Source: Blastochloris tepida (GTDB lineage: Bacteria; Pseudomonadota; Alphaproteobacteria; Rhizobiales; Xanthobacteraceae). From it: DNA of 64,000 nucleotides. Under the pieces are notes generated by a model, which was not told the origin of the DNA, did no database searches, and saw nothing but the letters and a program-made list of their open reading frames with translations. Made by a program: the position numbers and the translations under genes. Every line of letters begins with the position of its first letter. The stretch's first letter is position 1. Location: contig NZ_AP018907.1 in assembly GCF_003966715.1 (NCBI RefSeq), positions 3,336,001 through 3,400,000 of the forward strand, written 5' to 3'. This document shows, one piece after another, positions 24,980 through 46,664 of this stretch.

Positions 24980-25336
24980 ATGGAATTTGAGACGCTTGGC
25001 ACCCGGGCCGCGGATGCGGAGGCCTTCCTGAAGGCGCTGGCCAACCGCCACCGCCTGATGATCCTGTGCGAGCTGCACAAGGGCGAGCGTTCGGTGAGCG
25101 AGCTGCAGGAAGCGATGGGTCTCAGCCAGTCGTCGCTATCCCAGCATCTGGCGCGGCTGCGGCTGGATGCGCTGGTCAAGACGCGCCGCGAGTCGCAGAC
25201 GATCTATTATTCGATCGCCGCCGAGGGCGTGTCGCGCATCATCGCCGTGCTGTACGATTTGTTCTGCGCTGGGGCCTGCGGCGTCACGCCGCCGAAGGCA
25301 CTGGGAGCGCGGGCGCGCCGCACACCCCCGTTTTGA
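24980..25336 (+). CDS. ArsR family repressor, SqrR/BigR-like (persulfide sensor)
   Basis: The protein has 118 residues with a winged helix-turn-helix (VSELQEAMGLSQSSLSQHLARLRLDALV). Cys30 (LMILCEL) and Cys96 (LYDLFC) are 66 residues apart, exactly as Cys41 and Cys107 of Rhodobacter capsulatus SqrR, which form an intramolecular polysulfide bridge. A third Cys100 follows. The arsenic-sensing CVC motif is absent. It is divergent from an RND pump and followed 111 bp later by a rhodanese gene. The sensor function is inferred from these cysteines. Confidence 0.85.
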   Translation: MEFETLGTRAADAEAFLKALANRHRLMILCELHKGERSVSELQEAMGLSQSSLSQHLARLRLDALVKTRRESQTIYYSIAAEGVSRIIAVLYDLFCAGACGVTPPKALGARARRTPPF

Positions 25337-25447
25337 CGGCATGTTGTCCGTGAGGCCGCACGTCGGCACCCCGCATATCGAGATCCGCCGGCGCGCGGCG
25401 AGGCTTGCATCGCCCGCGCTTCCGGTGAATCGTCCCTCATCAAACCA

Positions 25448-26356
25448 ATGACACGCCGGAACGAGCCGATGACCTCTCCCCTGCCGCACGCCCCCAGCAC
25501 ATCCCCCGCACCGTCCGCGGGAATCGTCGATGCCGCGGGCGTCGCCGCCGCCATGGCGCGCGATGCGATCGTGTGGGACGTGCGCGACGGCGCAAGCTTC
25601 GCCCAGGGCCACATTCCCGGCGCCGTCCATGTGCCGGGCGGCGAGCGCCTGCTGCGGCTGCCGACCCCGGAGGAAGGCGGCGAGCTGGCGTGGGTGGCGA
25701 ACAGCCTCGGTGAGGCCGGGCTCGATCTCGAGCGCGAGATCATCGTCTATGCCACCCGCGGCAGCCCGTTCGCCTATGCCGGCGCGTTCGCGCTGCGCTA
25801 TTTCGGGGCGCGCCGCGTCGCCACCTTCCATGACGGCATCGAGGGCTGGCGCGAGGCCGGCGAGACGGTCGAGACCAGCGAGAGCCGCCGGCAGCCGGTG
25901 ACCGTCGAACTCCGGCTCGATCCGGCGCTTCTCATCCCGACCAGCGAGGTGCTGGCGCGGCTCGGCGCGTCCGACATGGTGCTGCTCGACGTGCGCACCC
26001 CCGGCGAGTTCGCCGGCACCGACGTGCGGGCCGCCCGCGGCGGCCGCATTCCCGGCGCGATCAACATCCCGTTCGAGGCCAACTGGCGCGATCCGGACAC
26101 CGCCGCCAAGCTCGCCCGTGGGCTGGTGGCCGACAGCACCGGCATGCAGCTGAAGCCGCTCGACGAATTGCGCGGCCTCTATGCGGCGCTCGATCCGGCC
26201 AAGGAGATCGTGGTCTATTGCCAGTCGGGCGTGCGCGCCACCGAGACCGCGTCCGTGTTGACTGAGCTCGGCTTCGCCAGGGTGCGGCTCTACAAGCGCT
26301 CCTGGGTCGAGTATGCGGCGCAGCCCGAGGCGCCGGTGGTGACCGGCGGGGTCTGA
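25448..26356 (+). CDS. Tandem-domain rhodanese-like sulfurtransferase
   Basis: Up to 302 residues with two rhodanese domains. The N-terminal domain (about 25-145) has VWDVRDGASFAQGHIPGAVHVP but Thr103 (YATRGSP) where the catalytic Cys would be, so it is inactive. The C-terminal domain (about 160-290) carries Cys258 in VVYCQSGVRATET. It moves sulfane sulfur as a Cys persulfide to cyanide or a carrier such as TusA. A start 21 bp inside (MTSPLPHAPS) is equally possible. Rhodanese-TusA-DsrE2 modules serve Dsr-type oxidation; the partners lie at 44.9-45.8 kb. Confidence 0.88.
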   Translation: MTRRNEPMTSPLPHAPSTSPAPSAGIVDAAGVAAAMARDAIVWDVRDGASFAQGHIPGAVHVPGGERLLRLPTPEEGGELAWVANSLGEAGLDLEREIIVYATRGSPFAYAGAFALRYFGARRVATFHDGIEGWREAGETVETSESRRQPVTVELRLDPALLIPTSEVLARLGASDMVLLDVRTPGEFAGTDVRAARGGRIPGAINIPFEANWRDPDTAAKLARGLVADSTGMQLKPLDELRGLYAALDPAKEIVVYCQSGVRATETASVLTELGFARVRLYKRSWVEYAAQPEAPVVTGGV

Positions 26357-26363
26357 TAGGGTT

Positions 26364-27860
26364 TCACACCGGGCAGGTCGCGGCCGGCGCGCCGGGATGG
26401 GCGGCGAGCAGGTCGCCGGCGTCGTCCAGCGCCGGCTGAACGCTGGTGCCGCGGTTCAACCGCCCGTGCAGCGTCACCACCGTGCCGACGATGATGATCG
26501 CCGGGCCGCGCAGCGCCGCCTCGCGCACCTTGGCGGCGAGCGTGCCCAGCGTGCCGGTGACCACCGCCTGATCGGCGCGGGTGCCGTTGTCGACCACCGC
26601 CGCCGGCAGATCGGGGTCGGCGCCGCGGACGATGAATTCCGCCATCAGATCGTCGAGATGGGCGAGGCCCATATAGATCGCCACCGTCTGGCGCGGCTGC
26701 AGCAGGGCCTGCCAGTCGAGATCGACGAAGCCGTCGCGGCCATGGCCGGTGACGAACACGCAAGCCTGGGCGTGGTCGCGGTGGGTGAGCGGGATGCCGG
26801 AATAGGCGGCGCAGCCGCTGGCCGCGGTGATGCCGGGGCAGACCTGGAACGGGATGGCGTGCGCGGCCAGCACCTCGATCTCCTCGCCGCCACGGCCGAA
26901 CAGGAACGGATCGCCGCCCTTGAGCCGCAGCACCCGCTTGCCCTCGCGCGCCAGCCGCACAAGCAGGCTGCAGATCTCGGCCTGGGGCAGCGTGTGCTGG
27001 CCCGGCGCCTTGCCGACGAAGATGCGCTCGGCCTCGCGCCGCACGAGATTGAGGACGCCGTCGTCGATGAGGCGGTCGTAGACCACGACGTCGGCCTTCT
27101 GCATCAGCCGCAGCGCCCGGAAGGTGAGAAGGTCGGGATCGCCCGGCCCGGCGCCGACCAGATAGACCTCGCCGCGCGGCGCCAAGGCGTGACCTTCGCC
27201 GTGAGTTTCGCCATGGGTTGCGGCGGCCTGTTCGAGCGCGGCCCGCAGGCTGGCGTCGGCGGCGCGGTCGTTGCCGGCCAGAGCGAGGTCGCCGACCGCG
27301 CCGTCCAGCACGTCCTCCCAGAACCGGCGCCGCGCTGCGGGCGAAGACAGCCGGTCGCGCACGCGGTCGCGGAAGCGGCCGACCAGACCGGCCAGCCGGC
27401 CATAGGCGGCCGGAATCGTACTCTCTAGACGCGCCTTGAGCATTCGCCCAAGGATCGGCGAGGCGCCCGAGGTCGAGATCGCGACGATCAGCGGGTCGCG
27501 ATCGACGATCGCCGGCATGATGAAGTCGCACAATTCCGGCCGGTCGGCGACGTTCACCGGCACGCCGGCGCGTCTTGCCAGGGCGCCGAAGGTTTCGTCC
27601 CGGTCCGGGCTCGGGGTTGCGACGAAGCACAGTGCCCGGCCCTCCAGGTCGGCCGGCGTGGGGTCTCTCGGCTCGTGCCGAAGGTTGGGGTGATCGAGAA
27701 TGGCCACGAAGTCCGGCGCAAGCTCGGGCGCGAAGGCGGTGACGCGGCCGCCGGCACGCAGCAGAAGCTCGGTGCGGCGCGCGGCGACCACGCCGCCGCC
27801 GATGACCGCGATGGGCTTGCCCTCGATATCGAGACAGATCGGCAGATGTCGCATGGTCAC
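26364..27860 (-). CDS. cysG: Siroheme synthase CysG (trifunctional)
   Basis: The protein has 498 residues. The N-terminal half (1-205) is the NAD-dependent precorrin-2 dehydrogenase/ferrochelatase, with IAVIGGGVVAARRTELLL and SGASPILGRMLKARLE. The C-terminal half (from about 228) is uroporphyrinogen-III methyltransferase, with VYLVGAGPGDPDLLTFRALRLMQ, RLKGGDPFLFGRGGEE and GITAASGCAAYSGIPLTHRDHA. It converts uroporphyrinogen III to siroheme. It sits 0.9 kb from dsrN, which suggests it supplies the cofactor of DsrAB (and perhaps of assimilatory sulfite or nitrite reductase). Confidence 0.95.
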   Translation of the reverse strand: MTMRHLPICLDIEGKPIAVIGGGVVAARRTELLLRAGGRVTAFAPELAPDFVAILDHPNLRHEPRDPTPADLEGRALCFVATPSPDRDETFGALARRAGVPVNVADRPELCDFIMPAIVDRDPLIVAISTSGASPILGRMLKARLESTIPAAYGRLAGLVGRFRDRVRDRLSSPAARRRFWEDVLDGAVGDLALAGNDRAADASLRAALEQAAATHGETHGEGHALAPRGEVYLVGAGPGDPDLLTFRALRLMQKADVVVYDRLIDDGVLNLVRREAERIFVGKAPGQHTLPQAEICSLLVRLAREGKRVLRLKGGDPFLFGRGGEEIEVLAAHAIPFQVCPGITAASGCAAYSGIPLTHRDHAQACVFVTGHGRDGFVDLDWQALLQPRQTVAIYMGLAHLDDLMAEFIVRGADPDLPAAVVDNGTRADQAVVTGTLGTLAAKVREAALRGPAIIIVGTVVTLHGRLNRGTSVQPALDDAGDLLAAHPGAPAATCPV

Positions 27861-27970
27861 TCGCGCCTCCCGCGCGGGGCGGGCCGCATCGGCGCCGCCT
27901 CGTCCGTGCCGGCTCTCGAACGGCCGGCTTCGGGGACCAGCCTACCGGCCGCTCGTCATAATATCAATAC

Positions 27971-27986
27971 ATACGAATAATCGTAT
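27971..27986. promoter_or_regulatory. Perfect palindrome upstream of cysG
   Basis: The sequence atacga-ataa-tcgtat lies 111-126 bp upstream of cysG in an AT-rich patch of an otherwise GC-rich spacer. It could be an operator for cysG or a -10 element (TATGAT/TACGAT-like). Its half-sites are GAAT and ATTC in the opposite order to the SqrR-type sites, so it is not counted with them. Confidence 0.4.
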
Positions 27987-28002
27987 TCTTTCACGCGAAC
28001 CG

Positions 28003-28225: not shown

Positions 28226-28783
28226 ATGGCCTCATCCGTCGAGACGCCCGGCAGCATCGTCAGGCTCGGACCTGCCGATGCCGATCGCTATTGCGAGCAC
28301 ATGATGCGGCTCGATCAGGCGGCACGTGAACTGCGCTTCTTCGCCGATGTCTCGGATTTCCATGTGGTGCTGCATGCCGGCGCGGCGCTGTCGGACGGGC
28401 GGATCGTCATCGGCTTCGTCGTCGAGGACGAGATCCGCGGCGCCTGCGAGCTGATGCTGAGCGACGAGATCACCCGCACGGGGGAAGGCGCCTTCAGCGT
28501 CGAGGGCTGCTGGCGCCGCCACGGCATCGGCTCGCGCCTGATGGTGGCGATGATCGAGGAGGCGCGGCGCGCCGACATCCGCCGCATCGAGCTGTCGTGC
28601 CTGAAGTCAAACGTGCCGATGCAGTGCCTCGCCGCCGGCTTCACCGACGACCTGCGGTTCGAGAACGACACCGTGCTGGCCATTCTGCAGCGTGCGGGCG
28701 ATGCGCCCGAGGTCGTGGGCGCACCGGACCTGCTCCAGGGCGCGGGCCCCGCTCATCCGTTCGCCGCCAGCCAGACGTCCTGA
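28226..28783 (+). CDS. GNAT family N-acetyltransferase
   Basis: The protein has 185 residues from MASSVETPGSIVRLG, with GGAAG nine bases upstream; the frame is open 18 codons further. The acetyl-CoA loop is visible as EGCWRRHGIGSRLMVAMIEEARRADI (about 92-117). SNVPMQCLAAGF matches motif B. The substrate is unknown. Its 3' end overlaps the dsrN 3' end by 31 bp in convergent orientation, so it marks the border of the dsr cluster and is probably unrelated to it. Confidence 0.8.
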   Translation: MASSVETPGSIVRLGPADADRYCEHMMRLDQAARELRFFADVSDFHVVLHAGAALSDGRIVIGFVVEDEIRGACELMLSDEITRTGEGAFSVEGCWRRHGIGSRLMVAMIEEARRADIRRIELSCLKSNVPMQCLAAGFTDDLRFENDTVLAILQRAGDAPEVVGAPDLLQGAGPAHPFAASQTS

Positions 28784-30174
28784 GGCCCGCTGAGCGATCG
28801 GCGTGTCCGCTGTTCCCGAATGAACGCCACGAAACGCTGCGCCCAGGCGTTGCGCGATGTGCTGCGCAGATGGCTGAAGCTCGCCAGCACATTGTTGACG
28901 ACGACGCCGTCATGGCCGCCGCCGATGCCGACGCCGCGCCGCACGCGATAGGCGAACCGGCTGTCCGGCGCGATGTTCTCCAGTGCGGCGTGATGGAACT
29001 CGTGCGCCGGTATGGTGGCGCCGATCAGCCGCCCGGGCCAAGGCGAGACCGCCGTCTCCTCCAGCGTGACGAGGCCGTGGCCCTGCGGCCGTTCGTGCAT
29101 CACCGTATCGGCCGGGATCGCCCCCACCATCGCGTGCGTGATGCCGCGCCATGTAATTCCGCGCGTCAGATACATCAGCCCGCCGCATTCGGCATAGACC
29201 GGAAGGCCGCGTGAGATCGCCTGGCGGATGTCGGCGAGGAGCGCGGTGTTGGCGGCAAGCCGCGCCGCCTGCGTCTCGGGAAACCCGCCGCCGATGAGCA
29301 GCGCATCGGCCGCCGGCAGGCGGCTGTCGGCCAGCGTGTCGAAGAACACGCAATCGGCGCCAGCCTGGGCCAGCGCATCGAGGTCGTCGGCATAATAGAA
29401 GCCGAAGGCGGCATCGCGCGCCACGGCGATGCGGACATCCCGGTGCCGTGAGGGCTCGACGATGCCGGGCGCGGCCGGCCGCGCAAGGGTCGCGGTGGCG
29501 GCAATGCCGATCAGGCGGTCGAGATCGACGCAATCCGCCACCAGGTCGCGGGCAGCGGCGATCACCGCGGCGGCACTCTCGGTCTCCAGCGGCGTGGTGA
29601 GGCCGAGATGGCGCTCGGCCACGGCCAGCGCATCGTTGCGCCGCACCGCGCCCAGCACCGGCACGCTGGTGTAGCGTTCGAGCACCTGACGCAGCTTGGT
29701 TTCCTGGCGCGCCGAGCCCACCTTGTTGAGGATGACCCCGGCAATCGTCACCTTGGGGTCGAACGCCGCATAGCCGGCGACCAGCGGCGCCGCGCCGCGG
29801 GTGATGCCGGTTGCATCGACGACCAGCACCACCGGTGCCGCGACCAGCTTCGCCAGCGCGGCGCTGCAGTCGCGCCCCTCCAGGTCGAGGCCGTCGTGCA
29901 GGCCCTTGTTGCCCTCGACGATGGCGATATCCGCTCCTCGCGCATTGCGCCGGAAGGTCGCGACGATCTCGGCCTCGCTCTGGGTGTTGAAATCGAGATT
30001 GTAGCAGGGCCGGCCGCTGGCGCAGGCGTGCCACAGCGGATCGATATAGTCCGGCCCCTTCTTGAAGGTCTGGACGGCAAGCCCGCGCGCCTCCAGCGCC
30101 GCGGCAAGGCCCAGCGTCAGCGTGGTCTTGCCGGACGACTTGTGGGTGGCGGAGATGAAGAGCCGGCTCACCAT
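28753..30174 (-). CDS. dsrN: DsrN, siroheme amidase of CbiA/CobB type
   Basis: The protein has 473 residues and resembles cobyrinic acid a,c-diamide synthase. The N-terminal ATP-binding domain has FISATHKSSGKTTLTLGLAAAL and TFKKGPDYIDPLWH. The C-terminal glutamine amidotransferase domain has GGGFPETQAARLAAN and the nucleophile in YAECGGLMYLTRG. In Dsr systems DsrN amidates siroheme for DsrAB. Position as last gene of the cluster, 13 bp after dsrP, supports DsrN over a cobalamin role; no other cobalamin gene is near. Confidence 0.92.
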   Translation of the reverse strand: MVSRLFISATHKSSGKTTLTLGLAAALEARGLAVQTFKKGPDYIDPLWHACASGRPCYNLDFNTQSEAEIVATFRRNARGADIAIVEGNKGLHDGLDLEGRDCSAALAKLVAAPVVLVVDATGITRGAAPLVAGYAAFDPKVTIAGVILNKVGSARQETKLRQVLERYTSVPVLGAVRRNDALAVAERHLGLTTPLETESAAAVIAAARDLVADCVDLDRLIGIAATATLARPAAPGIVEPSRHRDVRIAVARDAAFGFYYADDLDALAQAGADCVFFDTLADSRLPAADALLIGGGFPETQAARLAANTALLADIRQAISRGLPVYAECGGLMYLTRGITWRGITHAMVGAIPADTVMHERPQGHGLVTLEETAVSPWPGRLIGATIPAHEFHHAALENIAPDSRFAYRVRRGVGIGGGHDGVVVNNVLASFSHLRSTSRNAWAQRFVAFIREQRTRRSLSGPQDVWLAANG

Positions 30175-30187
30175 CTATCGTCACGCC

Positions 30188-31456
30188 TCAGAGCGCTCGG
30201 CCCGACGGCATCGGATCGGATCCGCCAAGCCCCTGATCTGGCGCCGCATTTGCGGAGACGGCTCCAGCCGGCGCCTTCGGCAAAAAGGGCATCAGCCGCA
30301 GCGCCAGGGCAACGATCAGCATCGCCATCGACACGCCGCTCGCGCCCAGCAGCAGCTCGGGCAGCGCGGGCACGTAGCGGCCGACCGCGCCGTCGAGGGC
30401 CGGGCTCGACACCTCCATGCCCGGGAACAGCGCCAGCGGAAACGCCTGCCCGCCGATGATGATGACGTAGAGCTGAGCGAGGCCGCCGATGAGGAACAAG
30501 GCCGAGGCCAGCTCGATCGCCAGCCGGCCCTTGGTGCCGCGCGGCGCAAACGCCAGCAGCGCCAGCGGCAGCACGGTGCCGATGCCGATCTGGCCGAGCC
30601 AGAAGATCAGTGGGAAAATGCCGCCGTCGCGCAGCAGGAACAGCTCGACGCCCTGGTGCGCGGCGGAATAGAGCTTGGTCACGTGCTGCACGGCGGTGAA
30701 ATAAAGCACCGCCAATGCGAAGATTACCAGCAGGCCGCGGAACTTGCCCAGCATCTCCTCGGGCATCAGCTCGTCGCGGGTCTCGCGCGACATGGTGAGC
30801 AGCACCAGCACGGTGAAGGCCAGCCCATAGAGGAACGAGGCGGCGATGAACAGCGGCGCCAGGATCGCCGCGTCATAGGCCTCGCGCGCGATGAGGAAGC
30901 CGAAGATCGAGCCGGTGCCGGTGGTCAGCACCAGCCGCCAGCCGAAGGCGAGCCAGCCCATCGCCTTGCCGAACGCCGCCGACTTCGCGGCCTGCCGGTC
31001 CATCATCGAGAACAGGTAGGCCGCGACGATGACGACGAAGCCGGAATAGAGATAGATGTTCCAGGCGAAGATCGATTTGAAATTATAGGTAGTCATCGCC
31101 ACCAGCAGCCGGTCCGGCCGGCCGAGATCGAGCACCAGCACGGCGAGCCCGCCGATCAGGAGCGCGATGGCGAGAAGGCCGGACAGCCGCGCATAGGGCT
31201 TGTAGGCCAGCCGGTTGAACACCGAGGACACCGAGGCGACATTGAGCGCGCCCGACGCCGCGACGATCAGGAACACCGCAAACACGTGCGGCAGGCCCCA
31301 GACGATCTGGTTGTTCATGCCGGTGACGATGTGGCCGTTCTCCTCCATGTACAGCGCCGCGCCGAGCCCGGCCGCGACCAGCGCGACATGAACGGCGATG
31401 AGCGCCCAGAACGGCGTGCTGTGGTCGTCGAGTGTCTGAAACGCCAGTTTCGCCAT
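30188..31456 (-). CDS. dsrP: DsrP, NrfD-type integral membrane subunit
   Basis: The protein has 422 residues from MAKLAFQTLDDHSTPFW; a GTG 15 bp upstream is an alternative start and neither has a strong ribosome site. About ten hydrophobic segments are visible. The NrfD/PsrC-like quinone-interacting pattern includes LDLGRPDRLLVAMTTYNFKSIFAWNIYLYS (residues about 105-135). It is the quinone-reactive membrane part of DsrMKJOP and partners DsrO. It lies 30 bp after dsrO. Confidence 0.93.
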   Translation of the reverse strand: MAKLAFQTLDDHSTPFWALIAVHVALVAAGLGAALYMEENGHIVTGMNNQIVWGLPHVFAVFLIVAASGALNVASVSSVFNRLAYKPYARLSGLLAIALLIGGLAVLVLDLGRPDRLLVAMTTYNFKSIFAWNIYLYSGFVVIVAAYLFSMMDRQAAKSAAFGKAMGWLAFGWRLVLTTGTGSIFGFLIAREAYDAAILAPLFIAASFLYGLAFTVLVLLTMSRETRDELMPEEMLGKFRGLLVIFALAVLYFTAVQHVTKLYSAAHQGVELFLLRDGGIFPLIFWLGQIGIGTVLPLALLAFAPRGTKGRLAIELASALFLIGGLAQLYVIIIGGQAFPLALFPGMEVSSPALDGAVGRYVPALPELLLGASGVSMAMLIVALALRLMPFLPKAPAGAVSANAAPDQGLGGSDPMPSGRAL

Positions 31457-31486
31457 CGCTTGAGTCCACACGCTTGAAGGAGAGCG

Positions 31487-32251
31487 TCACAGCCCCCGGT
31501 AGCCGACGCCGGGATCGAGCCGGAGGTCGGCGCGGATGCGCGCCGGCGCCCGTGCCGCGACCGCCTTGGCGATCGCGCTATTGGGGTCGTTGAGGTCGCC
31601 GAACAGCATCGCCCCACCCTTGGCGGCGCAGGCCTCGACGCAGGCCGGCAGGCGGCCGGCATCGATGCGCGGCGCGCACAGCGTGCAGCCCTCCACCGTG
31701 CCCTTGCCGCGCGGTGCATCCGCCGTCTGGTCGTGCACCGGCTCGTGCACCAGCGTGCGCGCCTTGTAGGGACAGGCCATGATGCAGTAGCGGCAGCCGA
31801 TGCAGATGTGGCGGTCGACCAGCACGATGCCGTCGGCGCGGCGGAACGAGGCGCCGGTGGGGCAGACATCGACGCAGGGCGCGCTGGCGCAGTGCTGGCA
31901 CATCACCGGCACCTCGCGCGCCGCACCCGACGCCGGATCGCGCACGCTGACCTTGCGGATCCAGTGCGGATCGGTCGCCTTGTGGCCGGTGTCGGCCCAG
32001 CCATTCTCGGTGCGGCAGGCGGCGACGCAGGCGTCGCAGTCGGCCGGGCAGGCGTTGACGTCGATCAGCAGGCCCCAGCGCACCTTGGGCGAGACGGCTT
32101 CGCCCGGCGCGCGCGCCTCGGCCTCCGCGCCACCCATCGCATAGAGCGTGACGCCGGGAGCGAGCAGCACCGCCAGCAGGCCGCCGGCCCCGCGCAACAG
32201 CGCGCGCCGGTCGGCCGCGAGAGTGGTGCGGGTGTCGCGCGCATCGCTCAT
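31487..32251 (-). CDS. dsrO: DsrO, periplasmic iron-sulfur protein
   Basis: The protein has 254 residues from MSDARDTRTTLAADRRALLRG. A Tat-type signal (DRRALLRGAGGLLAVLLAPG) leads to the periplasm. Four 4Fe-4S-type cysteine groups follow: CPADCDACVAAC, CQHCASAPCVDVCP, CIGCRYCIMACP and CTLCAPRIDAGRLPACVEAC. This is the NrfC/DmsB-like architecture. It passes electrons between DsrJ and DsrP. It overlaps dsrJ by 4 bp (ATGA). Confidence 0.94.
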   Translation of the reverse strand: MSDARDTRTTLAADRRALLRGAGGLLAVLLAPGVTLYAMGGAEAEARAPGEAVSPKVRWGLLIDVNACPADCDACVAACRTENGWADTGHKATDPHWIRKVSVRDPASGAAREVPVMCQHCASAPCVDVCPTGASFRRADGIVLVDRHICIGCRYCIMACPYKARTLVHEPVHDQTADAPRGKGTVEGCTLCAPRIDAGRLPACVEACAAKGGAMLFGDLNDPNSAIAKAVAARAPARIRADLRLDPGVGYRGL

Positions 32252-32769
32252 CGCCCGCCCTCCCGCGTCTGGTCGAGATAGGCCGCCAGATCCTTTGCGA
32301 GATCCGGCATCGTGCCGTCGCTGCCGGATGCCGCCTTGGCCGGCGCAGGGCGCGAGGCATGGCATTCGAAGCAATCGATCGACACCGCCGCATAGCTGTG
32401 GCAGGCGCGGCAGAAATGGCCGGGGTCGGCATAGCTCACCGGCTGGCCGTCGGTACCCGGCGCAGCGTGGCAGCTTATGCAGCCGGAAAGGCTGAGATCC
32501 TTGGTGCCAGAATCTTTCGTGCCCGGATCCTTCGTACCCAGTTCCTTGGTGCGTACCCCGCGATGCACCGTGTCATCGCGCTGGTGCATCAGCAGGGTCA
32601 TGTGGTTGCGGCGCATGAAATCGGTGTCGCGCACGCACGCCTCGCCCTGCGCCTTCGGCGGATTGGGACGCGGCGTGCGGCCGGCGCCGGTGCCCTCGCC
32701 CGCAATGGCGCTGCCCGCCCCGATGAGCGAGACCAGCAGCGCAACCGCCATCGCTCTTGCGCGGATCAT
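32248..32769 (-). CDS. dsrJ: DsrJ, triheme cytochrome c with a repetitive insert
   Basis: The protein has 173 residues. A signal peptide (AMAVALLVSLIGAGSAIA) is followed by three c-type heme motifs: CISCH (97-101), CRACH (120-124) and CFECH (133-137). Cys45 may be the unusual distal heme ligand known in DsrJ, but alignment is needed. Between the N-terminal part and the first heme, residues 73-92 are a four-fold repeat of a GTKDx-like pentapeptide. It is the periplasmic redox subunit of DsrMKJOP. It follows dsrL by 3 bp. Confidence 0.94.
   Translation of the reverse strand: MIRARAMAVALLVSLIGAGSAIAGEGTGAGRTPRPNPPKAQGEACVRDTDFMRRNHMTLLMHQRDDTVHRGVRTKELGTKDPGTKDSGTKDLSLSGCISCHAAPGTDGQPVSYADPGHFCRACHSYAAVSIDCFECHASRPAPAKAASGSDGTMPDLAKDLAAYLDQTREGGR
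32494..32553. repeat. Four tandem 15-bp repeats inside dsrJ
   Basis: Units at 32494-32508, 32509-32523, 32524-32538 and 32539-32553 share the pattern nnatccttsgtgcc with 2-4 differences each. The unit length is a multiple of three, so copy number can change without breaking the frame. It encodes the GTKDx pentapeptide array before the first heme. Confidence 0.85.
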
Positions 32770-32772
32770 CGC

Positions 32773-34728: not shown

Positions 34729-36307
<1,579 letters not shown>

Positions 36308-36311
36308 GACG

Positions 36312-37500: not shown

Positions 37501-37535
37501 GGTGCTGTTCCCTCGGTTATCGGTTCGAAAGTGCT

Positions 37536-37549
37536 GCTCCGATCGGAGC
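37536..37549. promoter_or_regulatory. 14-bp perfect palindrome upstream of dsrC
   Basis: The sequence gctccgatcggagc lies 36-49 bp before the dsrC start in the 66-bp dsrH-dsrC spacer. It may be an operator or an RNA hairpin at a processing site. A secondary dsrC promoter is known in A. vinosum, which makes the location meaningful. Confidence 0.4.
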
Positions 37550-37566
37550 CAATGCTTAAGCCAGGA

Positions 37567-37875: not shown

Positions 37876-37885
37876 GACGGCCCCT

Positions 37886-38299: not shown

Positions 38300-38309
38300 C
38301 GCTTTGCCC

Positions 38310-38702: not shown

Positions 38703-38787
38703 GGGCTGGTCTCCCTGATGGGGCAGCGCGGTCGAAGTGCCGCCGCGCCGTTCCGCCGACTGCCGAGATCGAGGTGATGCAGGCCGC

Positions 38788-39867
38788 TCAGAACCGGACG
38801 TGCGCCGACATGTTCATGGTCTTGCGCGCGCCGGTCCAGGTGTCGAGGTGGTGCCGAGTGAAGGCGAAACCGGTCAGCTCGAAGAAGCGCGGCCAGCCGA
38901 TGCGCTCGATCCACTCGCCGATGCGCTCATAGTCCTTGGCGTTGGCCTTGTAGGTCGAGAGGATGGTGCGCACCACCTCGGCGACCTCCGGCCAGCGCGG
39001 CGGATTGTTCGGCAGATTGGCGACGACCAGCTTGTGGAACGCCGGCTTGGAGCGCGCGTTCGAGTGCTTGCCGCCGACCCACACCGCGATCTTGGTCGAA
39101 TCGGCGCCGTTGATCTGCATCGGCGGACAGGGCGGGTAGCAGGCGCCGCAGCACACGCACTTCTGCTCGTCCACCTCCAGCGACGGCTTGCCGTCGACCA
39201 TCGCCGGGCGGATGGCGGCGACCGGGCAGCGCGCCACCACGGCGGGACGCTCGCACACCTTGGCGACGAGATCGTGATTGATCTTCGGCGGCTTGGTGTA
39301 CTGCACATTGATCGAGATGTCGCCCTGGCCGCCGCAATTGATCTGGCAACAGGAGGTGGTGATGTGCACGCGGTTCGGCATCTCCTCGCGCACGAACTCC
39401 TCGTGCAGCATGTCCATCATGCTCTTCACCACGCCCGAGGCGTCGGTGCCGGGGATGTCGCAGTGCAGCCAGCCCTGGGTGTGGGAGATCATGGTCACCG
39501 AATTGCCGGTGCCGCCGACCGGAAATCCCGCGTCTGTGAGCGCGTCAACCAGCGGCGCCACCTTGTCGGCGGCGCTGACCATGAACTCGATGCTGCTGCG
39601 GGTGGTGAAGCGCACATAGCCTTCGGCGAAGCGGTCGGCGATGTCGCACAGCGTGCGGATGGTGAACACGTCCATCTGGCGCTGGGTGCCGGCGCGCACC
39701 GTCCACACCTCCTCGCCGCTCTTGGCGACATGGCGCAGCACGCCGGGCCGCGGGCGGTCGTGCCACGCCCACGCGCCGTAGTTCCGCTTCAGCACCGGAT
39801 GCATGAACGGGAACGGATCCGGGACGCCGGATTCGATCGGATGGCGCAGTTGCTCCGCCGTGCTCAT
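38788..39867 (-). CDS. dsrB: Reverse dissimilatory sulfite reductase, beta subunit
   Basis: The protein has 359 residues. Cluster-binding cysteines are SCCQINCGG (173-178) near the siroheme-side site and a ferredoxin insert CVCCGACYPPCP (237-248), with Cys214 in VVARCPVAAI. In sulfur oxidisers DsrAB runs in reverse, oxidising DsrC-bound sulfur to sulfite. The direction is inferred here from dsrEFH and dsrL and the absence of dsrD. It lies 75 bp after dsrA. Confidence 0.97.
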   Translation of the reverse strand: MSTAEQLRHPIESGVPDPFPFMHPVLKRNYGAWAWHDRPRPGVLRHVAKSGEEVWTVRAGTQRQMDVFTIRTLCDIADRFAEGYVRFTTRSSIEFMVSAADKVAPLVDALTDAGFPVGGTGNSVTMISHTQGWLHCDIPGTDASGVVKSMMDMLHEEFVREEMPNRVHITTSCCQINCGGQGDISINVQYTKPPKINHDLVAKVCERPAVVARCPVAAIRPAMVDGKPSLEVDEQKCVCCGACYPPCPPMQINGADSTKIAVWVGGKHSNARSKPAFHKLVVANLPNNPPRWPEVAEVVRTILSTYKANAKDYERIGEWIERIGWPRFFELTGFAFTRHHLDTWTGARKTMNMSAHVRF

Positions 39868-39942
39868 GAGCGTGGTCCCCCAGATGTCTGATCGTGCCGG
39901 CTGTGGCCGCCGGCTTGAAGCGAAGGATGCGGACGGGCGGCG

Positions 39943-41256
39943 TCAGTCGGCCGCGACGTCGAGGCCGGCCTCGCGGGCCTTGCGCTCGAAGTACTTCGCC
40001 GCCTCATCCGTGAAGTCGTCGGTGCGCACGTAGCAGGAGGTGCGCGGATGGTTGACCATGTTGGGGTCCGGCTCGATGCCGATGCCTTCGAGGAAAGCCG
40101 GCAGGCCGATGCGGTCCATGGTCTCGCCGATCCGCTCGTGCTCCAGCGCATTCTCGGCGAAGAAGTCGATGACGGTGCGGGCGAACTCGACCAGCCGGTC
40201 AAAATCCTCGTCCGTCTCGAGCCTGAAGAACGGCACGATCATCGTGCCCATCAGGTCGCCGATCTTGAGGGCGCGCTTGCCGCCCATCAGGATCGAGGCG
40301 CCGCGCTCGTCGCCCGGCGACAGCGCCTTGGGCATCACGTTCAGGCAGTGCATGCAGCGCACGCACGAGCGGTTGTCGACATCGAGCGTGTCGTCGTCAT
40401 TGAGCGACAGCGCGCGCGTCGGACACATGGCGATGACGTGGTCGATGGCGTATTTGCGGCCGACCCTGGCGACATAGGCCTTCACCTCGGCCTGGTCGAC
40501 CTTCATGTCGTCGCGCCAAGTGCCGATCACCGCGAAGTCGGAGCGGTGGATGGCGTTGACGCAGTCATTGGCGCAGCCGGAGAACTTGAACTTGAACTTG
40601 TAGGGCAGCGCCGGACGGTGCATCTCGTCCAGGAACTCGTTGATCACCCGCCGGTGCGCCTTGACCTCGTCATAGCACGACATCTCGCAGCGGGCATGGC
40701 CGACGCAGCTCATCGAGGTGCGCAGCGCAGGCCCCGCGCCGCCGAGATCGAAGCCCATGGCGTTGAACTCGTCGAACGCCTTCTGCACATTCTCGGTGGA
40801 GCAGCCCTGGAACATGATGTCGCCGCTCTGGCCGTGCAGCGCGACGAGGCCCGAGCCGTGGCGCTCCCAGACGTCGCAGAGCTGGCGCAGCAGATCGGTG
40901 GTGTAGTGATAGCCGGCCGGCGGCTGGATGCGCAGGGTGTGGAATTCCTTCGAGGCCGGGAACCTGTCGGCGACCTCGGAGAAGCGGGGAATGACGCCGC
41001 CGCCATAGCCGAACACCGAGACGGTGCCGCCCTTCCAGAAGCCGAGGCGCTCCGTATAGGAGTGTTCGAGCTGGCCGAGCAGGTCGTTCATCATCGGCGC
41101 GTAGGGCTTGTCCGATGCATCGCGCAGGCGCTTCAGCCCGGTGACGAAACTCGGCCACGGCCCGCTTTCGAGCTGATCGAGAAGCGGCGTGCGATGCTGG
41201 TCCGCCGCCGTGCCGTTGCCCTGCGCGCGATCCGAACCCGTCTTGTCGAGCGACAT
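39943..41256 (-). CDS. dsrA: Reverse dissimilatory sulfite reductase, alpha subunit
   Basis: The protein has 437 residues from MSLDKTGSDRAQGNG; 34 upstream in-frame codons lack similarity. Siroheme-4Fe4S cysteines are Cys184/190/194 (SCVGHARCEMSC) and Cys228/232 (SGCANDC). The ferredoxin-type domain has Cys278 (MCPTRAL) and CVRCMHC (298-304). With DsrB it forms the alpha2beta2 enzyme in the cytoplasm. It heads the cluster dsrABEFHCMKLJOPN and diverges across a 459-bp spacer from two small genes. Confidence 0.97.
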   Translation of the reverse strand: MSLDKTGSDRAQGNGTAADQHRTPLLDQLESGPWPSFVTGLKRLRDASDKPYAPMMNDLLGQLEHSYTERLGFWKGGTVSVFGYGGGVIPRFSEVADRFPASKEFHTLRIQPPAGYHYTTDLLRQLCDVWERHGSGLVALHGQSGDIMFQGCSTENVQKAFDEFNAMGFDLGGAGPALRTSMSCVGHARCEMSCYDEVKAHRRVINEFLDEMHRPALPYKFKFKFSGCANDCVNAIHRSDFAVIGTWRDDMKVDQAEVKAYVARVGRKYAIDHVIAMCPTRALSLNDDDTLDVDNRSCVRCMHCLNVMPKALSPGDERGASILMGGKRALKIGDLMGTMIVPFFRLETDEDFDRLVEFARTVIDFFAENALEHERIGETMDRIGLPAFLEGIGIEPDPNMVNHPRTSCYVRTDDFTDEAAKYFERKAREAGLDVAAD

Positions 41257-41433
41257 GCGACTCCATCCCCCTCGGTGGTGTCCGCCGGGAGGCCGCGCCC
41301 CGCCGGAGTTTCCTTCCCTTTCGCTAGGCCTCGGGGCGCCGTCTTCGCGGTGCTCCACGCATGGGGCGTTGCGCCCTGGCCTGCGTCACAATGCTCTTTC
41401 CAAGCATGCTTGTTGTGCGCATAATAACAAAAA

Positions 41434-41449
41434 ATTCGAATGTGCGAAT
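41434..41449. promoter_or_regulatory. ATTC-N8-GAAT palindrome upstream of dsrA, candidate SqrR-type operator
   Basis: The site attcgaatgtgcgaat lies in an AT-rich island (about 41415-41457), 178-193 bp before dsrA and 267 bp before the divergent small genes. It matches exactly the ATTC-N8-GAAT pattern I recall for Rhodobacter SqrR. On the minus strand a TATTAT hexamer follows shortly after, a possible dsrA -10. The rest of the 41257-41715 spacer shows only the 10-bp palindrome aagcatgctt (41402-41411). Confidence 0.65.
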
Positions 41450-41715
41450 AAAAAAATGAATGGCCGCGGGCGCGGCGGTTTCGCCCCGCGGGACCGGCGA
41501 TCCGCTTGTCGTAGCGGCCGGCCGAAAGCGACGGAAACGCAACGGGATGGCGGCTCGTTTGGGCCGCCGCGGGAGGACGGGATGCGGATTGGACAGCGGA
41601 TGCCGGAGCGAGGGCGCGGGCCTTCACAGGCTTGGGCCGCGCCCGCCGGCGGCGGGCGGAGCGGCGGCACGCGGAACGCCACCGATCCCGGCATTCAAGG
41701 CGCGGGAGCGGCCGC

Positions 41716-42158: not shown

Positions 42159-42257
42159 TCGCAGCATCGTACGAATACGGAAGCTTCGCGCCGGGACCAC
42201 AACACACGACGCCAACGTCAAGCCCGGCGCCGAACGGAAAGAGTGGGGAGAAACGCG

Positions 42258-43541
42258 GTGGCACATATCGTGATCCTGGGCGCCGGCCTCGGCGGCGTCA
42301 TCATGGCCTACGAGATGAAGGATCAGATGGGGAAGGGAGACACCCTCACCGTCATCACCAAGGATCCGATCTATCATTTCGTTCCGTCGAATCCGTGGGT
42401 GGCTGTCAATTGGCGGACGCGCGAGGCGGTCGAGGTCGATCTCGCCCCGGTGTTCGCCCGGCGCGGCATCGATTTCCGGCCGATGCCGGCGACCCGGGTG
42501 CATCCGGACCAGAACCGTGTCGATCTCGCCGACGGCTCGTCGATCTCCTACGACTTCCTGATCATCGCCACCGGTCCGGAGCTGGCGTTCGACGAGATCG
42601 AGGGGCTCGGGCCGGAGGGCTACACCACCTCGATCTGCCACGTCGACCACGCCACCGAGGCGGCCGCCAAGTTCGAGGAGTTCTGCAAGAACCCCGGCCC
42701 GATCGTCACCGGCGCGGTGCAGGGCGCCTCCTGTTTTGGCCCGGCCTACGAGTACACCTTCATCCTCGACACCGAGCTGCGCCGGCGCCGCATCCGCGAC
42801 AAGGTGCCGATGACCTTCGTGACCGCCGAACCCTATATCGGCCACCTCGGGCTCGACGGCGTCGGCGACACCAAGGGCCTGCTCGAAGGCGAGATGCGCC
42901 AGCACCACATCAAGTTCATCACCAGCGCCCGGGTGAAGGCGGTCGAGCCCGGCAAGATGACCATCGAGGAGATCGCCGACGACGGCTCGATCAAGAAGAC
43001 CACCGAGTTGCCGTTCGCCTTCTCGATGATGCTGCCGTCGTTCCGCGGCATCGGAGCGCTGCGCGGCATCGAGGGTCTGGTCAATCCGCGCGGCTTCGTG
43101 CTGATCGACCAGCACCAGCAGAACCCGACCTACAGGAACGTGTTCGCGGTCGGCGTCTGCGTCGCCATTCCGCCGATCGGGCCGACGCCGGTTCCCTGCG
43201 GCATCCCCAAGACCGGCTTCATGATCGAGTCGATGGTGACGGCGACCGCCAACAACATCGCCCAGATCCTGCGCGGCGAACAGCCCACCCACCAGGGCAC
43301 CTGGAACGCCGTCTGCCTCGCCGACTTCGGCGATTCCGGCGTCGCCTTCGTCGCCCAGCCGCAGATTCCGCCGCGCAATGTCAACTGGTCGTCGTCCGGC
43401 GTCTGGGTGCACAATGCCAAGATCGCCTTCGAGAAATACTTCATCCGCAAGATGCGCCGCGGCGAGAGCGAGCCGTTCTACGAGAAGGCGATGCTCGACA
43501 TCCTCGGCATCGGCAAGCTGAAGAAGGTCACCACCGACTGA
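42258..43541 (+). CDS. Sulfide:quinone oxidoreductase-like flavoprotein
   Basis: The protein has 427 residues from the GTG at 42258, preceded by GGGGAG; an in-frame GTG 15 bp earlier is less likely. The FAD site is AHIVILGAGLGGVIMAYEM. Cys127 (SICHVDHA), Cys159 (GASCFGPAYEY) and Cys353 (AVCLADFGDSG) fall at the numbers of the three redox cysteines of R. capsulatus SQR. Extra Cys301 and Cys314 (TPVPCGIPKTGFM) are present. It probably oxidises sulfide to polysulfide on the inner membrane and reduces quinone. The SQR type cannot be fixed without a tree. Confidence 0.85.
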   Translation: MAHIVILGAGLGGVIMAYEMKDQMGKGDTLTVITKDPIYHFVPSNPWVAVNWRTREAVEVDLAPVFARRGIDFRPMPATRVHPDQNRVDLADGSSISYDFLIIATGPELAFDEIEGLGPEGYTTSICHVDHATEAAAKFEEFCKNPGPIVTGAVQGASCFGPAYEYTFILDTELRRRRIRDKVPMTFVTAEPYIGHLGLDGVGDTKGLLEGEMRQHHIKFITSARVKAVEPGKMTIEEIADDGSIKKTTELPFAFSMMLPSFRGIGALRGIEGLVNPRGFVLIDQHQQNPTYRNVFAVGVCVAIPPIGPTPVPCGIPKTGFMIESMVTATANNIAQILRGEQPTHQGTWNAVCLADFGDSGVAFVAQPQIPPRNVNWSSSGVWVHNAKIAFEKYFIRKMRRGESEPFYEKAMLDILGIGKLKKVTTD

Positions 43542-43740: not shown

Positions 43741-44805
43741 ATGTCGCTCGACAAGCCTGCCGGAGGCGAGGGGGCGGCGACCGGCCCTCTCGGGTCGGCG
43801 ATCGCCCTCGCGCCGGGTCTCGTTCTCTGCGCCATTCTCGCCTTCGTCTCGGTCCAGATCGAGCCGTGGGGCACCAAGGCGATGCTGGCGCTGGTCGGCA
43901 CGCCCGTCACCATCACCGCACCGGTGATCGCGCTCCTCATCGGCATGGCGTTCCACCCGCTGGTCGCGCGGCCGGCCTTCACGCCGGGCATGACGTTTGC
44001 CATCAAGAAGCTGCTGCGCTGGGCGATCGCGCTGTTCGGCCTGAAGATCGCGCTGTCTGACATCATCGGCCTGGGCCTGGGAACGGCGGTCATGGTCATC
44101 GTGTCGATGGCGGCCACTTTGGCGTCCGGCGTGGCGCTGGCCCGCCTGCTCGGCCGCAGCGATTCCTACGGCGCGATCGCCGGCGGCGCCACGGCGGTGT
44201 GCGGCGCCTCGGCGGCGCTGGCCACGGCCTCGGTGCTGCCGCACTACAAGGGCCGCGAGTCCGACATGGCGTTCGTCGCGGTCACGGTGAACATCCTGGC
44301 GACGCTGGCCATGGTGTTCTACCCGCCGATCTGCGCCGGGCTGGGGTTCGACGAGCGCACCATCGGCATCTTCCTCGGCGCCACCATCCACGACGTCGCC
44401 CAGGTGGTCGGTGCCGGCTATGCGGTGTCGGACACCGCCGGCAATGTCGCCACCGTGGTCAAGCTGTTCCGCGTCTTCATGCTGCTGCCGGTGGTGCTTC
44501 TGGTCGGCTGGTGGTTCGCGGCCGAGGGCGGCGACGTGCACAAGGCGAAGGTGCCGGTGCCGGTGTTCGCCATCATGTTCCTGGTGTTCGTCGCCATCAA
44601 CAGCGTCGGCATCCTGCCGGTGGAGATCAAGTCGGCGCTGGTCGAGGCGTCGCGCTGGGGCCTGCTGATCGCCATCGCCGCGCTCGGCTTCAACACCTCG
44701 CTCGCCACCATTTTGCGCATCGGCCCGCAGCATCTGCTCGTGGTGCTGGGCGCGACCCTGGTGATCTTCGTCCTGCCCTTGGTGTGGCTGCTGATCCTCG
44801 GATAG
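43741..44805 (+). CDS. YeiH/UPF0324 family putative sulfate exporter
   Basis: The protein has 354 residues with about ten membrane helices. Family marks are LLRWAIALFGLKIALSDI near residue 85, GGATAVCGASAALATASV near 148, GATIHDVAQVVGAGYAVS near 213 and AALGFNTSL near 315. The family (PSE) is annotated as putative sulfate exporter and biochemical proof is scarce. In this sulfur island an export role for sulfite or sulfate made by Dsr is plausible. It follows the SQR-like gene by 199 bp, a spacer without recognised features apart from a GGTTCCCGG motif. Confidence 0.88.
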   Translation: MSLDKPAGGEGAATGPLGSAIALAPGLVLCAILAFVSVQIEPWGTKAMLALVGTPVTITAPVIALLIGMAFHPLVARPAFTPGMTFAIKKLLRWAIALFGLKIALSDIIGLGLGTAVMVIVSMAATLASGVALARLLGRSDSYGAIAGGATAVCGASAALATASVLPHYKGRESDMAFVAVTVNILATLAMVFYPPICAGLGFDERTIGIFLGATIHDVAQVVGAGYAVSDTAGNVATVVKLFRVFMLLPVVLLVGWWFAAEGGDVHKAKVPVPVFAIMFLVFVAINSVGILPVEIKSALVEASRWGLLIAIAALGFNTSLATILRIGPQHLLVVLGATLVIFVLPLVWLLILG

Positions 44806-44843: not shown

Positions 44844-44880
44844 TTGACAAACCTGGCTTTGCGCATTCGTATATTGAAAT
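44844..44880 (+). promoter_or_regulatory. Promoter and ATTC-N8-AAAT palindrome before dsrE2
   Basis: A consensus -35 TTGACA (44844-44849) is followed after 17 bp by TCGTAT (44867-44872), with TATATT one register on. The palindrome-like attc-N8-aaat (44865-44880) overlaps the -10 region, one base away from ATTC-N8-GAAT. A repressor bound there would block the promoter of dsrE2-tusA. Confidence 0.5.
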
Positions 44881-44929
44881 GTATGAAACTTAAACAATGC
44901 GGTGCGTCATGCCGCGAGAGGGGGGAGAC

Positions 44930-45436
44930 ATGGCTGAGGCGGCGAACGGCGACGGCAATGCGAAGACGATGACGATCATCGTCACCAAGGGCACGCTCGA
45001 TTGGGCATATCCGCCCTTCATCCTGGCCACCACGGCGGCGGCGATGGGCGTCGAGGTGACCATGTTCTTCACCTTCTACGGCCTGTCGCTGCTGCAGAAG
45101 AAGCTCGATCTCCAGGTGTCGCCGCTCGGCAATCCGGCGATGAAGATGCCGATGATGGGCATGCACATGGGCATGCCCAACATCGTCGCCATGCTGCCGG
45201 GCGTCGAGGCCGGGGCCACGGCGATGATGAAGAACATGATCAAGAACAAGGGTGTGGCCTCGGTGGAGGAGCTGCGCGAGGCGGCGATCGAGGCCGACGT
45301 CAAGATCATCGCCTGCCAGATGACGATGGATCTGTTCGAGCTCAAGACCGAGGACATGATCCCCGGCGTCGCGCTCGGGGGGGCCGCCACCTACATGGAG
45401 AAGGCGCTGGCCTCCGACATCAATCTCTACATCTGA
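44930..45436 (+). CDS. dsrE2: DsrE2 (DsrE/F/DrsH-like) sulfur-trafficking protein
   Basis: The protein has 168 residues from MAEAANGDGNAKTMTIIVTKG, with GGGGGAGA as ribosome site. The DsrE-like fold is visible, with a hydrophobic helix (PPFILATTAAAMGVEVTMFFTFYG) and the conserved Cys129 in IIACQMTMDLF. A Met-rich loop (72-90) is typical of DsrE2. These proteins accept sulfur within the Rhd-TusA-DsrE2 relay that feeds DsrEFH or the sHdr system. tusA follows 92 bp downstream. Confidence 0.9.
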   Translation: MAEAANGDGNAKTMTIIVTKGTLDWAYPPFILATTAAAMGVEVTMFFTFYGLSLLQKKLDLQVSPLGNPAMKMPMMGMHMGMPNIVAMLPGVEAGATAMMKNMIKNKGVASVEELREAAIEADVKIIACQMTMDLFELKTEDMIPGVALGGAATYMEKALASDINLYI

Positions 45437-45528: not shown

Positions 45529-45756
45529 ATGGCCGACAAGGTGCTCGACGCCAAGGGGCTCAACTGCCCGCTGCCGATTCTGCGTGCCAAGAAGACGCTG
45601 AAGGAGGTGCCGTCGGGCGGTACGCTCGAGGTGCTGGCGACCGATCCGGGCTCGGTTGCCGACTTCGCCGCCTTCTGCCGCTCGACCGGCAACGAGCTGC
45701 TCGAATCGTCGTCCGCCGACGGCGTCTACCGCTTCCTCATCAAGCACACCGGGTGA
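45529..45756 (+). CDS. tusA: TusA sulfur-carrier protein
   Basis: The protein has 75 residues. The active Cys13 lies in the CPxP motif (GLNCPLPILRAKKTL). It carries sulfur as a persulfide between rhodanese or DsrE2 and DsrEFH. A TTGGAGG ribosome site precedes the ATG by eight bases. Linkage to dsrE2 and to the dsr cluster points to oxidative sulfur transfer and not to tRNA thiolation. Confidence 0.95.
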   Translation: MADKVLDAKGLNCPLPILRAKKTLKEVPSGGTLEVLATDPGSVADFAAFCRSTGNELLESSSADGVYRFLIKHTG

Positions 45757-45993: not shown

Positions 45994-46034
45994 CACAAAG
46001 ACGCGGATGGCCGGGACAAGCCCGGCGATGACGG
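45994..46034. repeat. GCCGGGACAAGCCCGGC repeat, single unit
   Basis: The block acgcggatggccgggacaag with its continuation to gcgatgacg is one half of the composite elements at 7.6 and 48.9 kb. It lies in the 560-bp spacer between tusA and the next regulator, which otherwise holds only the candidate operator at 46166. Confidence 0.75.
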
Positions 46035-46165
46035 CAGCGGGGGAAACCCGCCTGACCCGCCCCGCACCCTGGACCCGCACCCGCGCAGCGTTGGACACGA
46101 CCCCACCGAGCGCGGGGCCGGCTGCGTTGCGCTTGACGCGGTGCAATATATTTAATAATTTTGAT

Positions 46166-46181
46166 ATTCATTCCTATGAAG
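46166..46181. promoter_or_regulatory. ATTC-N8-GAAG near-palindrome upstream of the second SqrR-like gene
   Basis: The site is one base short of ATTC-N8-GAAT and lies in an AT-rich patch (about 46144-46180), 136-151 bp before the regulator start. The patch also has TTTAATAATTTTGATATT, a fair promoter region. Autoregulation is a plausible reading. Confidence 0.4.
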
Positions 46182-46316
46182 CCCTCGAAGCGAGGGCCCG
46201 GCGTGCCCGAACTTGGCGCGCCGCCGCCAAACGATGATGACCGCCAGCATTTCCCGCCACCTTCTTTGACAGCGAAATGAGGGTGATCTAGCTTTGCTGG
46301 CGGACTGAGGACACAA

Positions 46317-46664
46317 ATGCCGTCTGTCAAGTTGAAACAAATCAAGGCGCCGCTTGATTCCGAGATGATGCTCGCCAACGCCCAGGAGGCGAGCGACTTC
46401 CTCAAGGCGTTGGCCCACCAGTCCCGGCTGGTCATCCTGTGCATGCTGGCCGAGGGCGAGAAATCCGTCGGCGAGCTTGAGGAGCTGCTGTCGCAGCGCC
46501 AAGCCACCGTGTCCCAGCAGCTCGCCCGGCTGCGGCTGGACGGGCTGGTCACCACCCGGCGCGACGGCCAGACCATCTATTACAGCCTCGCCTCGGACGA
46601 TGTCCGCGTCATCCTCGGCGCGCTCTACGAGGTGTTCTGCCAGCCCAAGCGCCGCCGCCGCTGA
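46317..46664 (+). CDS. ArsR family repressor, SqrR-like (persulfide sensor), second copy
   Basis: The protein has 115 residues. The winged helix-turn-helix reads VGELEELLSQRQATVSQQLARLRLDGLVTTRR. Cys42 (LVILCML) and Cys108 (LYEVFC) are 66 residues apart and sit one number from Cys41/Cys107 of R. capsulatus SqrR. No arsenic or zinc motif is present. It closes the sulfur island after tusA, which makes it the better candidate for the dsr/sqr regulator. The C terminus is a short Arg run. Confidence 0.88.
   Translation: MPSVKLKQIKAPLDSEMMLANAQEASDFLKALAHQSRLVILCMLAEGEKSVGELEELLSQRQATVSQQLARLRLDGLVTTRRDGQTIYYSLASDDVRVILGALYEVFCQPKRRRR

Follow-up and report, generated by a model that had tools for sequence, protein, structure and literature searches.

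In the published numbering, the cysteine pair of SqrR from Rhodobacter capsulatus is C41/C107 and that of BigR is C42/C108, both 66 residues apart (PMC9774590). The same distance is given for SoxR and sHdrR (C50/C116; PMC10451225, PMC12423496) and for HlyU (C38/C104; PMC10509353), whereas the published positions in YgaV (C31/C98) yield 67, not 66. Such regulators appear to act on nearby sqr, sox, pdo, rhodanese, shdr, resistance-nodulation-division (RND), TauE and SoxT-type genes (PMC12423496). The site deduced for SqrR is ATTC-N8-GAAT (PMC9774250), and a tetrapeptide in the recognition helix is described as setting the operator choice (PMC10509353). No regulator of reverse dsr operons was found in the titles and abstract beginnings of the open-licence papers listed, which is weak evidence of absence. 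Here, a stretch of 64,000 nucleotides from Blastochloris tepida (NZ_AP018907.1, positions 3,336,001 to 3,400,000; in the following "the window", with positions counted from its first letter) was analyzed, which contains two genes for repressors of this type, arsR1 and arsR2, and a reverse dsr cluster between them. Five palindromic sequences lie at sulfur promoters of the window, one of them upstream of dsrA, where a site of this kind recurs in many other alphaproteobacterial genomes.

The 22-bp palindromic motif was learnt by expectation-maximisation on the upstream regions of SqrR-type arsR genes from other genomes. A first run comprised 93 regions, two of them from Blastochloris. The second run comprised 88 regions and excluded Blastochloris as well as the arsR upstream regions of three dsr-positive genomes; further training genomes may carry dsr. 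The eight best of the 30 starts of this second run agreed, and approximately 48% of the regions carry the motif, which reads TATATTCG-N6-CGAATATA, in detail TATATTCG-aAn followed by its mirror image. Its core is identical to the published SqrR site. Applied to the 64 kb of the window, the second motif identified five sites with 18.5 to 33.6 bits, all at sulfur promoters, and the next best match reached 10.5 bits.

The highest-scoring candidate operator (TATATTAG-aataca-CTAATATA, 33.6 bits) is located at 24953..24974 between the RND genes and arsR1, where it overlaps a sigma-70-like promoter of arsR1 on the plus strand (TTGACA-17-TAATAT, 24945..24973). Because the ATG of arsR1 follows 6 nt past the −10 hexamer, the arsR1 mRNA may be leaderless. 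The candidate operator in the divergent promoter region of dsrA and a small open reading frame (ORF) covers 41431..41452 (AAAATTCG-aatgtg-CGAATAAA, 21.8 bits), and another was found at 27968..27989 between cysG and a GNAT gene (TACATACG-aataat-CGTATTCT, 18.5 bits); both are likewise overlapped by sigma-70-like promoters. An operator-like site is present upstream of dsrE2 at 44870..44891 (TATATTGA-aatgta-TGAAACTT, 20.7 bits; an overlapping alternative starts at 44862), and the fifth site, a candidate operator, lies upstream of arsR2 at 46147..46168 (TATATTTA-ataatt-TTGATATT, 22.7 bits). As far as the presence of sequences is concerned, the exact SqrR site occurs at dsrA (41434-41449) and related palindromes occur at the four other promoters. 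In the whole genome, a single contig of 3.95 Mb, exact ATTCG-N6-CGAAT is found twice, one occurrence being that at dsrA, and exact ATATTNG-N6-CNAATAT once, at arsR1.

In 60 Markov sequences of window length, the mean maximum score of the first motif was 9.1 (95th percentile 14.9). A sample of the genome, 20 stretches of 20 kb at even distances (400 kb), contained two sites of at least 18 bits and five of at least 15 bits, corresponding to 0.32 expected sites of at least 18 bits per 64 kb versus five in the window. When the whole genome was searched with a covariance model of the operator, no match reached E ≤ 10, because the motif is too short for 4 Mb. Within the window, this model recovered 24953, 41432 and the stretch 27962-27986 (E-values between 0.12 and 7), but neither 44870 nor 46147. 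The genome-wide statements on the operator are based on pattern searches and the 400-kb sample. A plain scan of the window for the consensus ATTCG-N6-CGAAT gave 20 matches versus 27.2 expected with two mismatches and 147 versus 207 with three; since there is no enrichment, consensus counting cannot separate the sites, whereas the weighted palindrome does. Repeated ACATTTGCATCCGCAAATGT palindromes were discarded as they fit the pattern, but not the motif. This palindrome is dispersed (G000:C1 744344, 948330, 1107274, 1167675, 2094063 and 3724070, with variants at 251839 and 2543756).

Elsewhere in the same genome, a 24.2-bit operator approximately 100 bp upstream of soxYZ (L266:14890-14911) may serve as a natural positive control. 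Sites near sox, sqr-like, dsrE2-tusA or RND genes were also detected in several relatives. The regulator locus L275 showed no site of at least 12 bits, and four pattern-picked loci of the B. tepida genome (L012, L237, L243 and L245) carry sites of at least 13 bits and no evident sulfur gene.

DsrA was sought in 150 genomes, including that of the window, and was present in 19. In 18 of them (G105 was left out because of too little upstream sequence), as much as 400 bp preceding the DsrA match was scanned and compared with 500 Markov sequences of local composition per region. A site at p < 0.05 was obtained in 13 of the 18 genomes, with 0.9 expected by chance; some of these genomes are close kin (G000/G002, G101/G148). 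Among further alphaproteobacterial genomes with dsrA, five out of seven showed such a site, two of the five belonging to one genus, so that 18 of 25 alphaproteobacterial upstream regions carry it in total. One of the two misses in this later set, G492, has no BigR-model match at 1e-15. In other classes of the phylum, sites were weak and restricted to 4 of 24 regions (24 of 46 positive genomes with loci), and no claim is made for them. All 18 dsr-positive relatives (including G105, excluding B. tepida itself) have a BigR-model match at 1e-15. The matches add up to 35 places, and the 30 that came with a locus were read. Twelve dsrA sites were found in the 14 genomes with a recognition helix of a type other than RQSLTSQHLTRLR, and one in the four genomes with the RQSLTSQHLTRLR type only (p = 0.044, kinship ignored). 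The regulators with this helix in five dsr-positive genomes (L214-L218; G105, G134, G136, G114 and G097) form a separate group of ArsR proteins with two cysteines, and four of these genomes have no other BigR-model match at 1e-15.

The type of half-site was related to the recognition helix of the regulator. Of 44 distinct regulator/operator pairs, 19 have a helix that does not start with Arg, and 12 of these show a TAG half-site; none of the 25 pairs with Arg at this place does (p = 2.4e-6; p = 0.0016 when collapsed to distinct helix words). As this link had been seen in the data before the first test, regulators outside the training set served as a check; there, the TAG half-site occurred in 8 of 10 non-Arg versus 0 of 7 Arg cases (p = 0.0023), or 7 of 9 versus 0 of 6 after near-copies from Blastochloris were merged (p = 0.007). 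The link fits the published remark on the tetrapeptide (PMC10509353). The operator of ArsR1 (SQSS) is of the TTAG type, likewise in a genus member without dsr. The dsrA, cysG, dsrE2 and arsR2 sites contain no TAG half, and ArsR2 has a helix of the Arg type. The division of labour that the original prediction had proposed between efflux control by ArsR1 and sulfur oxidation control by ArsR2 gains partial support, as the two operator types differ and are linked to the helices; the predicted ArsR2-type targets include the dsr operon, however, and not only the sqr-tusA-dsrE2 side.

ArsR1 is encoded at 24980..25336 and ArsR2 at 46317..46664, both on the plus strand, with the recognition helices SQSSLSQHLARLR and RQATVSQQLARLR, respectively. 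The translation of both ORFs confirmed the cysteine pairs C30/C96 in ArsR1 and C42/C108 in ArsR2, each 66 residues apart as in SqrR. Both proteins match PF01022 above its cut-off and hence belong to the ArsR-type winged helix-turn-helix proteins. In the predicted models (mean predicted local distance difference test score 85.2 for ArsR1 and 84.0 for ArsR2), the cysteines are located in the second and the last helix, namely in H23-33 and H82-97 of ArsR1 and in H35-45 and H94-108 of ArsR2. R. capsulatus SqrR is the top sequence match of both proteins in the PDB, and the structural comparison called for by the original prediction also ranked SqrR first for both folds, followed by HlyU in the case of ArsR1. 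The target-normalised template modelling scores of the monomer models were 0.94 (ArsR1) and 0.89 (ArsR2) against reduced SqrR (6o8k), and 0.90-0.91 and 0.83-0.84, respectively, against the tetrasulfide form (6o8n). It is this fold match, including that to 6o8n, which speaks for a juxtaposition of the cysteines in the dimers. Homology supports the classification of ArsR1 and ArsR2 as SqrR/BigR-type repressors, and they are ordinary members of the known SqrR/BigR/SoxR kind.

The spacing of 66 residues is not a special mark of the two proteins, as had been supposed. Both cysteine columns are occupied by Cys in 77 of 80 relatives from named genomes that were fetched with ArsR2 (the exceptions being L108, L118 and L121), and the spacing is 66 in all 77. 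Judged from these alignments, the shared spacing exceeds chance, but by descent. The genome also carries four SqrR-type regulators rather than two, all with the spacing of 66. The third (L003) is located at genome position 3,065,130 next to a SLAC1 gene. The fourth (L004; genome position 758,250) adjoins genes for a YeeE-type transporter, a thioredoxin-like protein and DsbD_TM, approximately 4 kb from soxYZ. L003 and L004 share 74 of 99 aligned residues and the Arg-type helix RQPAVSQQLARL. Weaker matches to the BigR model are L005 to L008, of which L007 and L008 overlap and represent one gene. The first cysteine column is occupied by Arg in L006 and in the L007/L008 gene and is unaligned in L005; the second is unaligned in all four. 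Neither the cysteine pair nor the presence of RND and rhodanese genes nearby is new in kind, two such repressors per cell have been known before, and the cysteine finding alone is ordinary.

The neighbourhood of both regulator genes was largely as described in the original prediction. Divergent from arsR1, the minus strand encodes an RND membrane-fusion protein of the HlyD type (23939..24928; the start at 24928 is our choice) and an RND efflux permease (ACR_tran, 20682..23942), both assigned by family matches. A rhodanese with two matched stretches follows downstream on the plus strand (25448..26356). Upstream of arsR2, the plus strand encodes DsrE2 (44930..45436, above the NCBIfam cut-off) and a TusA sulfurtransferase (45529..45756, family match). 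The supposed sqr is only SQR-like, a flavoprotein with FAD/NAD-binding domain (Pyr_redox_2, 42243..43541, plus strand) that scored 98.4 bits with the best NCBIfam SQR model versus a cut-off of 525. It is followed on the same strand by a Cons_hypoth698 membrane protein (43741..44805, family match), which we take to be YeiH-like. The siroheme synthase gene cysG (26364..27860, minus strand) scored above the NCBIfam cut-off; siroheme is the cofactor of DsrAB. The dsr cluster (30188..41256, minus strand) points away from the operator at 41431 and comprises dsrA, dsrB, genes of the dsrF/E type, dsrC and a K-L-J-O-P region. Its dsrA and dsrB are above the NCBIfam cut-offs, and dsrC and one DsrE/F protein are supported by Pfam; the remaining names are our assignments by place and resemblance. 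A gene similar to cobyrinic-acid a,c-diamide synthase (28753..30174, minus strand) stands in the position of dsrN, and we assume that name for it. Divergent from dsrA, two small ORFs are located on the plus strand at 41716-41931 and 41928-42158, the second of which encodes a DUF6967 protein. The first has no Pfam match, and one of its homologues carries the source name "sulfur relay protein DsrC". Homologues were found near dsrA in 11 of 16 dsrA loci outside Blastochloris (L155-L170; the 3-kb locus L027 was not counted). Small ORFs at 1011-1705 resemble parts of an insertion-sequence transposase.

According to PMC7193936, B. sulfoviridis has B. tepida as its closest relative. The ArsR2 proteins of the window and of B. 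sulfoviridis DSM 729 share 97% identity, and all five sites of the window are found in B. sulfoviridis at the same places, the arsR1/RND operator being identical and the dsrE2 site being weaker (14.4 bits). A third member of the genus (G001) has no DsrA match at 1e-100. Its arsR1/RND operator reads TACATTAG-N6-CTAATATA, and neither rhodanese nor cysG is located behind RND-arsR1. The gene order is GNAT gene, SQR-like gene (90% identical), arsR2, with the latter two adjoining, whereas the dsr block lies between the GNAT and the SQR-like genes in the other two Blastochloris (window 28783-42243 versus L171:4812-5394). This order and the presence of RND-arsR1 without dsr indicate that the two regulators are older than the dsr block or have outlived it, and the block could have been either gained or lost in the genus. 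A 12.8-bit site upstream of the SQR-like gene in G001 is similar to the dsrA operator; their alignment scores 44, 300 shuffles gave up to 45, and the link between the two sites is only suggestive.

Taken together, we lean towards a model of four paralogous repressors that are released by persulfide, in which ArsR1 acts on the pump, and dsr, cysG and dsrE2 are controlled by a protein of the ArsR2 type. The reduced repressor dimer would bind the 22-bp palindrome over the promoter; upon build-up of sulfane sulfur, a polysulfide bridge would form between the two cysteines and the repressor would leave the DNA. ArsR1 would repress itself and the divergent RND pump via the TTAG-type operator. An ArsR2-type protein, either ArsR2 or the paralogs L003/L004 with the same type of helix, would act via the operators without TAG half-sites on the dsr operon, the divergent small ORFs and sqr-like gene, cysG, dsrE2-tusA and arsR2. 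Reverse Dsr and the siroheme supply would then rise together with persulfide. In many Alphaproteobacteria, we infer, SqrR-type repressors may control the reverse Dsr operon and the supply of siroheme. A more specific generalisation is put forward tentatively, at slightly less than an even chance, namely that the reverse dsr operon of Alphaproteobacteria is under persulfide-released SqrR-type repressors via a conserved palindrome roughly 130-340 bp upstream of the DsrA frame, and that paralogous sensors of one cell divide the targets among themselves, an Arg/Ser difference in the recognition helix selecting TTCG-type versus TTAG-type half-sites.

Several observations weigh against the four-paralog model. 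The best family match of ArsR1 and ArsR2 is the NCBIfam BigR equivalog NF040642, with scores of 89.8 and 101.8 bits versus a cut-off of 155, and both were not filed as BigR because they are below it. No site of the second motif lies directly upstream of the SQR-like gene in the window. Five of the 18 scanned genomes (G134, G039, G097, G050 and G136) have no dsrA site, although SqrR-type regulators are present in G039 and G050, and the same applies to G691 with three BigR-model matches. In G116, only a Ser-helix regulator was found at the threshold used, yet the dsrA site is of the TTCG type. A site of at least 12 bits before the regulator's own gene is present in only 6 of 25 Arg-Gln regulators, the class of ArsR2. 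The proportion is 19 of 27 among regulators with other Arg helices and 23 of 28 among those with non-Arg helices; no site was found ahead of the L004 gene either. The motif was therefore learnt mostly from other helix classes, and the assignment of ArsR2 depends on the site upstream of arsR2 and on the published site of SqrR, which belongs to the same Arg-Gln class according to the alignment. The scarcity of sites among Arg-Gln regulators would also fit the explanation that, at dsrA and cysG, the motif catches AT-rich promoter sequence by composition: the motif itself is rich in A and T, each of the five sites falls into a low-GC island of the window (68% GC overall), and the 400-kb background contains two sites of at least 18 bits. 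However, the window has nine such islands (40-bp stretches with at most 35% GC), and the four others hold nothing above 7.3 bits. Moreover, 18 of 25 alphaproteobacterial regions pass 0.05 against nulls of local composition, versus 4 of 24 in other classes, and a mere effect of composition appears very improbable to us.

The ligand and the choice of paralog have to be weighed as well. The ArsR superfamily includes many metal sensors, and ArsR1 has a third cysteine, C100, four residues past C96. In SoxR, oxidation leads to a disulfide between C50 and C116 (PMC10451225). ArsR1 and ArsR2 might thus sense metals, oxidants or thiols instead of persulfide, but SqrR and HlyU rank above the metal sensors listed in both sequence and fold comparisons, the genes in their company belong to sulfur metabolism, and persulfide sensors of this cluster are described as reacting with persulfides, but with neither disulfides nor peroxides (PMC10509353), so we regard this as a quite unlikely explanation. 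A less remote, still rather unlikely alternative accepts SqrR-type proteins as the regulators, but has the dsrA-side sites served by the sox-side Arg-helix proteins L003/L004, with ArsR2 controlling only itself and the dsrE2-tusA/sqr side. The common helix type RQPAVSQQLARL and the 24.2-bit promoter site at soxYZ, about 4 kb from L004, are in accordance with it. It is opposed by G001, in which the sqr-like gene and arsR2 adjoin and the weaker, 12.8-bit site lies upstream of the former; the resemblance of this site to the dsrA operator is itself no more than suggestive.

What is new in the four-paralog model is the DNA side, that is, the operators and the predicted persulfide-gated control of the reverse Dsr operon. 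The conserved dsrA operator is a direct candidate for the regulation of reverse dsr, and the five sites are ready probes. If true, the rule connecting helix and half-site would allow one, in cells with more than one paralogous persulfide sensor, to guess the promoter bound by each.

Among the described systems, HlyU of Vibrio (Cys38/Cys104) shares the LSQSALSQHLA-type recognition helix with ArsR1. It is described as an activator, whereas ArsR1 has the layout of a repressor with the operator over the promoter. BigR of Xylella and Acinetobacter is similar with respect to the subfamily, the cysteine pair and the best match to NF040642, but both Blastochloris proteins are below the cut-off of this model. 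In Hyphomicrobium denitrificans, the targets of SoxR and sHdrR are sox and shdr genes, whereas the cytoplasmic pathway of Blastochloris is reverse Dsr; the passages on "dsr" in PMC12423496 refer to DsrE3C and not to dsrAB. SqrR of R. capsulatus has in common with the Blastochloris proteins the ArsR fold, the cysteine pair 66 residues apart, the core ATTC-N8-GAAT and the association with sulfide- or persulfide-related genes, and ArsR2 is 56-61% identical to it over the parts aligned to the SqrR structures. SqrR governs sqr and a rhodanese gene in R. capsulatus (PMC9995734); in Blastochloris, in contrast, four paralogs occur together, and the predicted targets additionally comprise dsrA, cysG and dsrE2-tusA.

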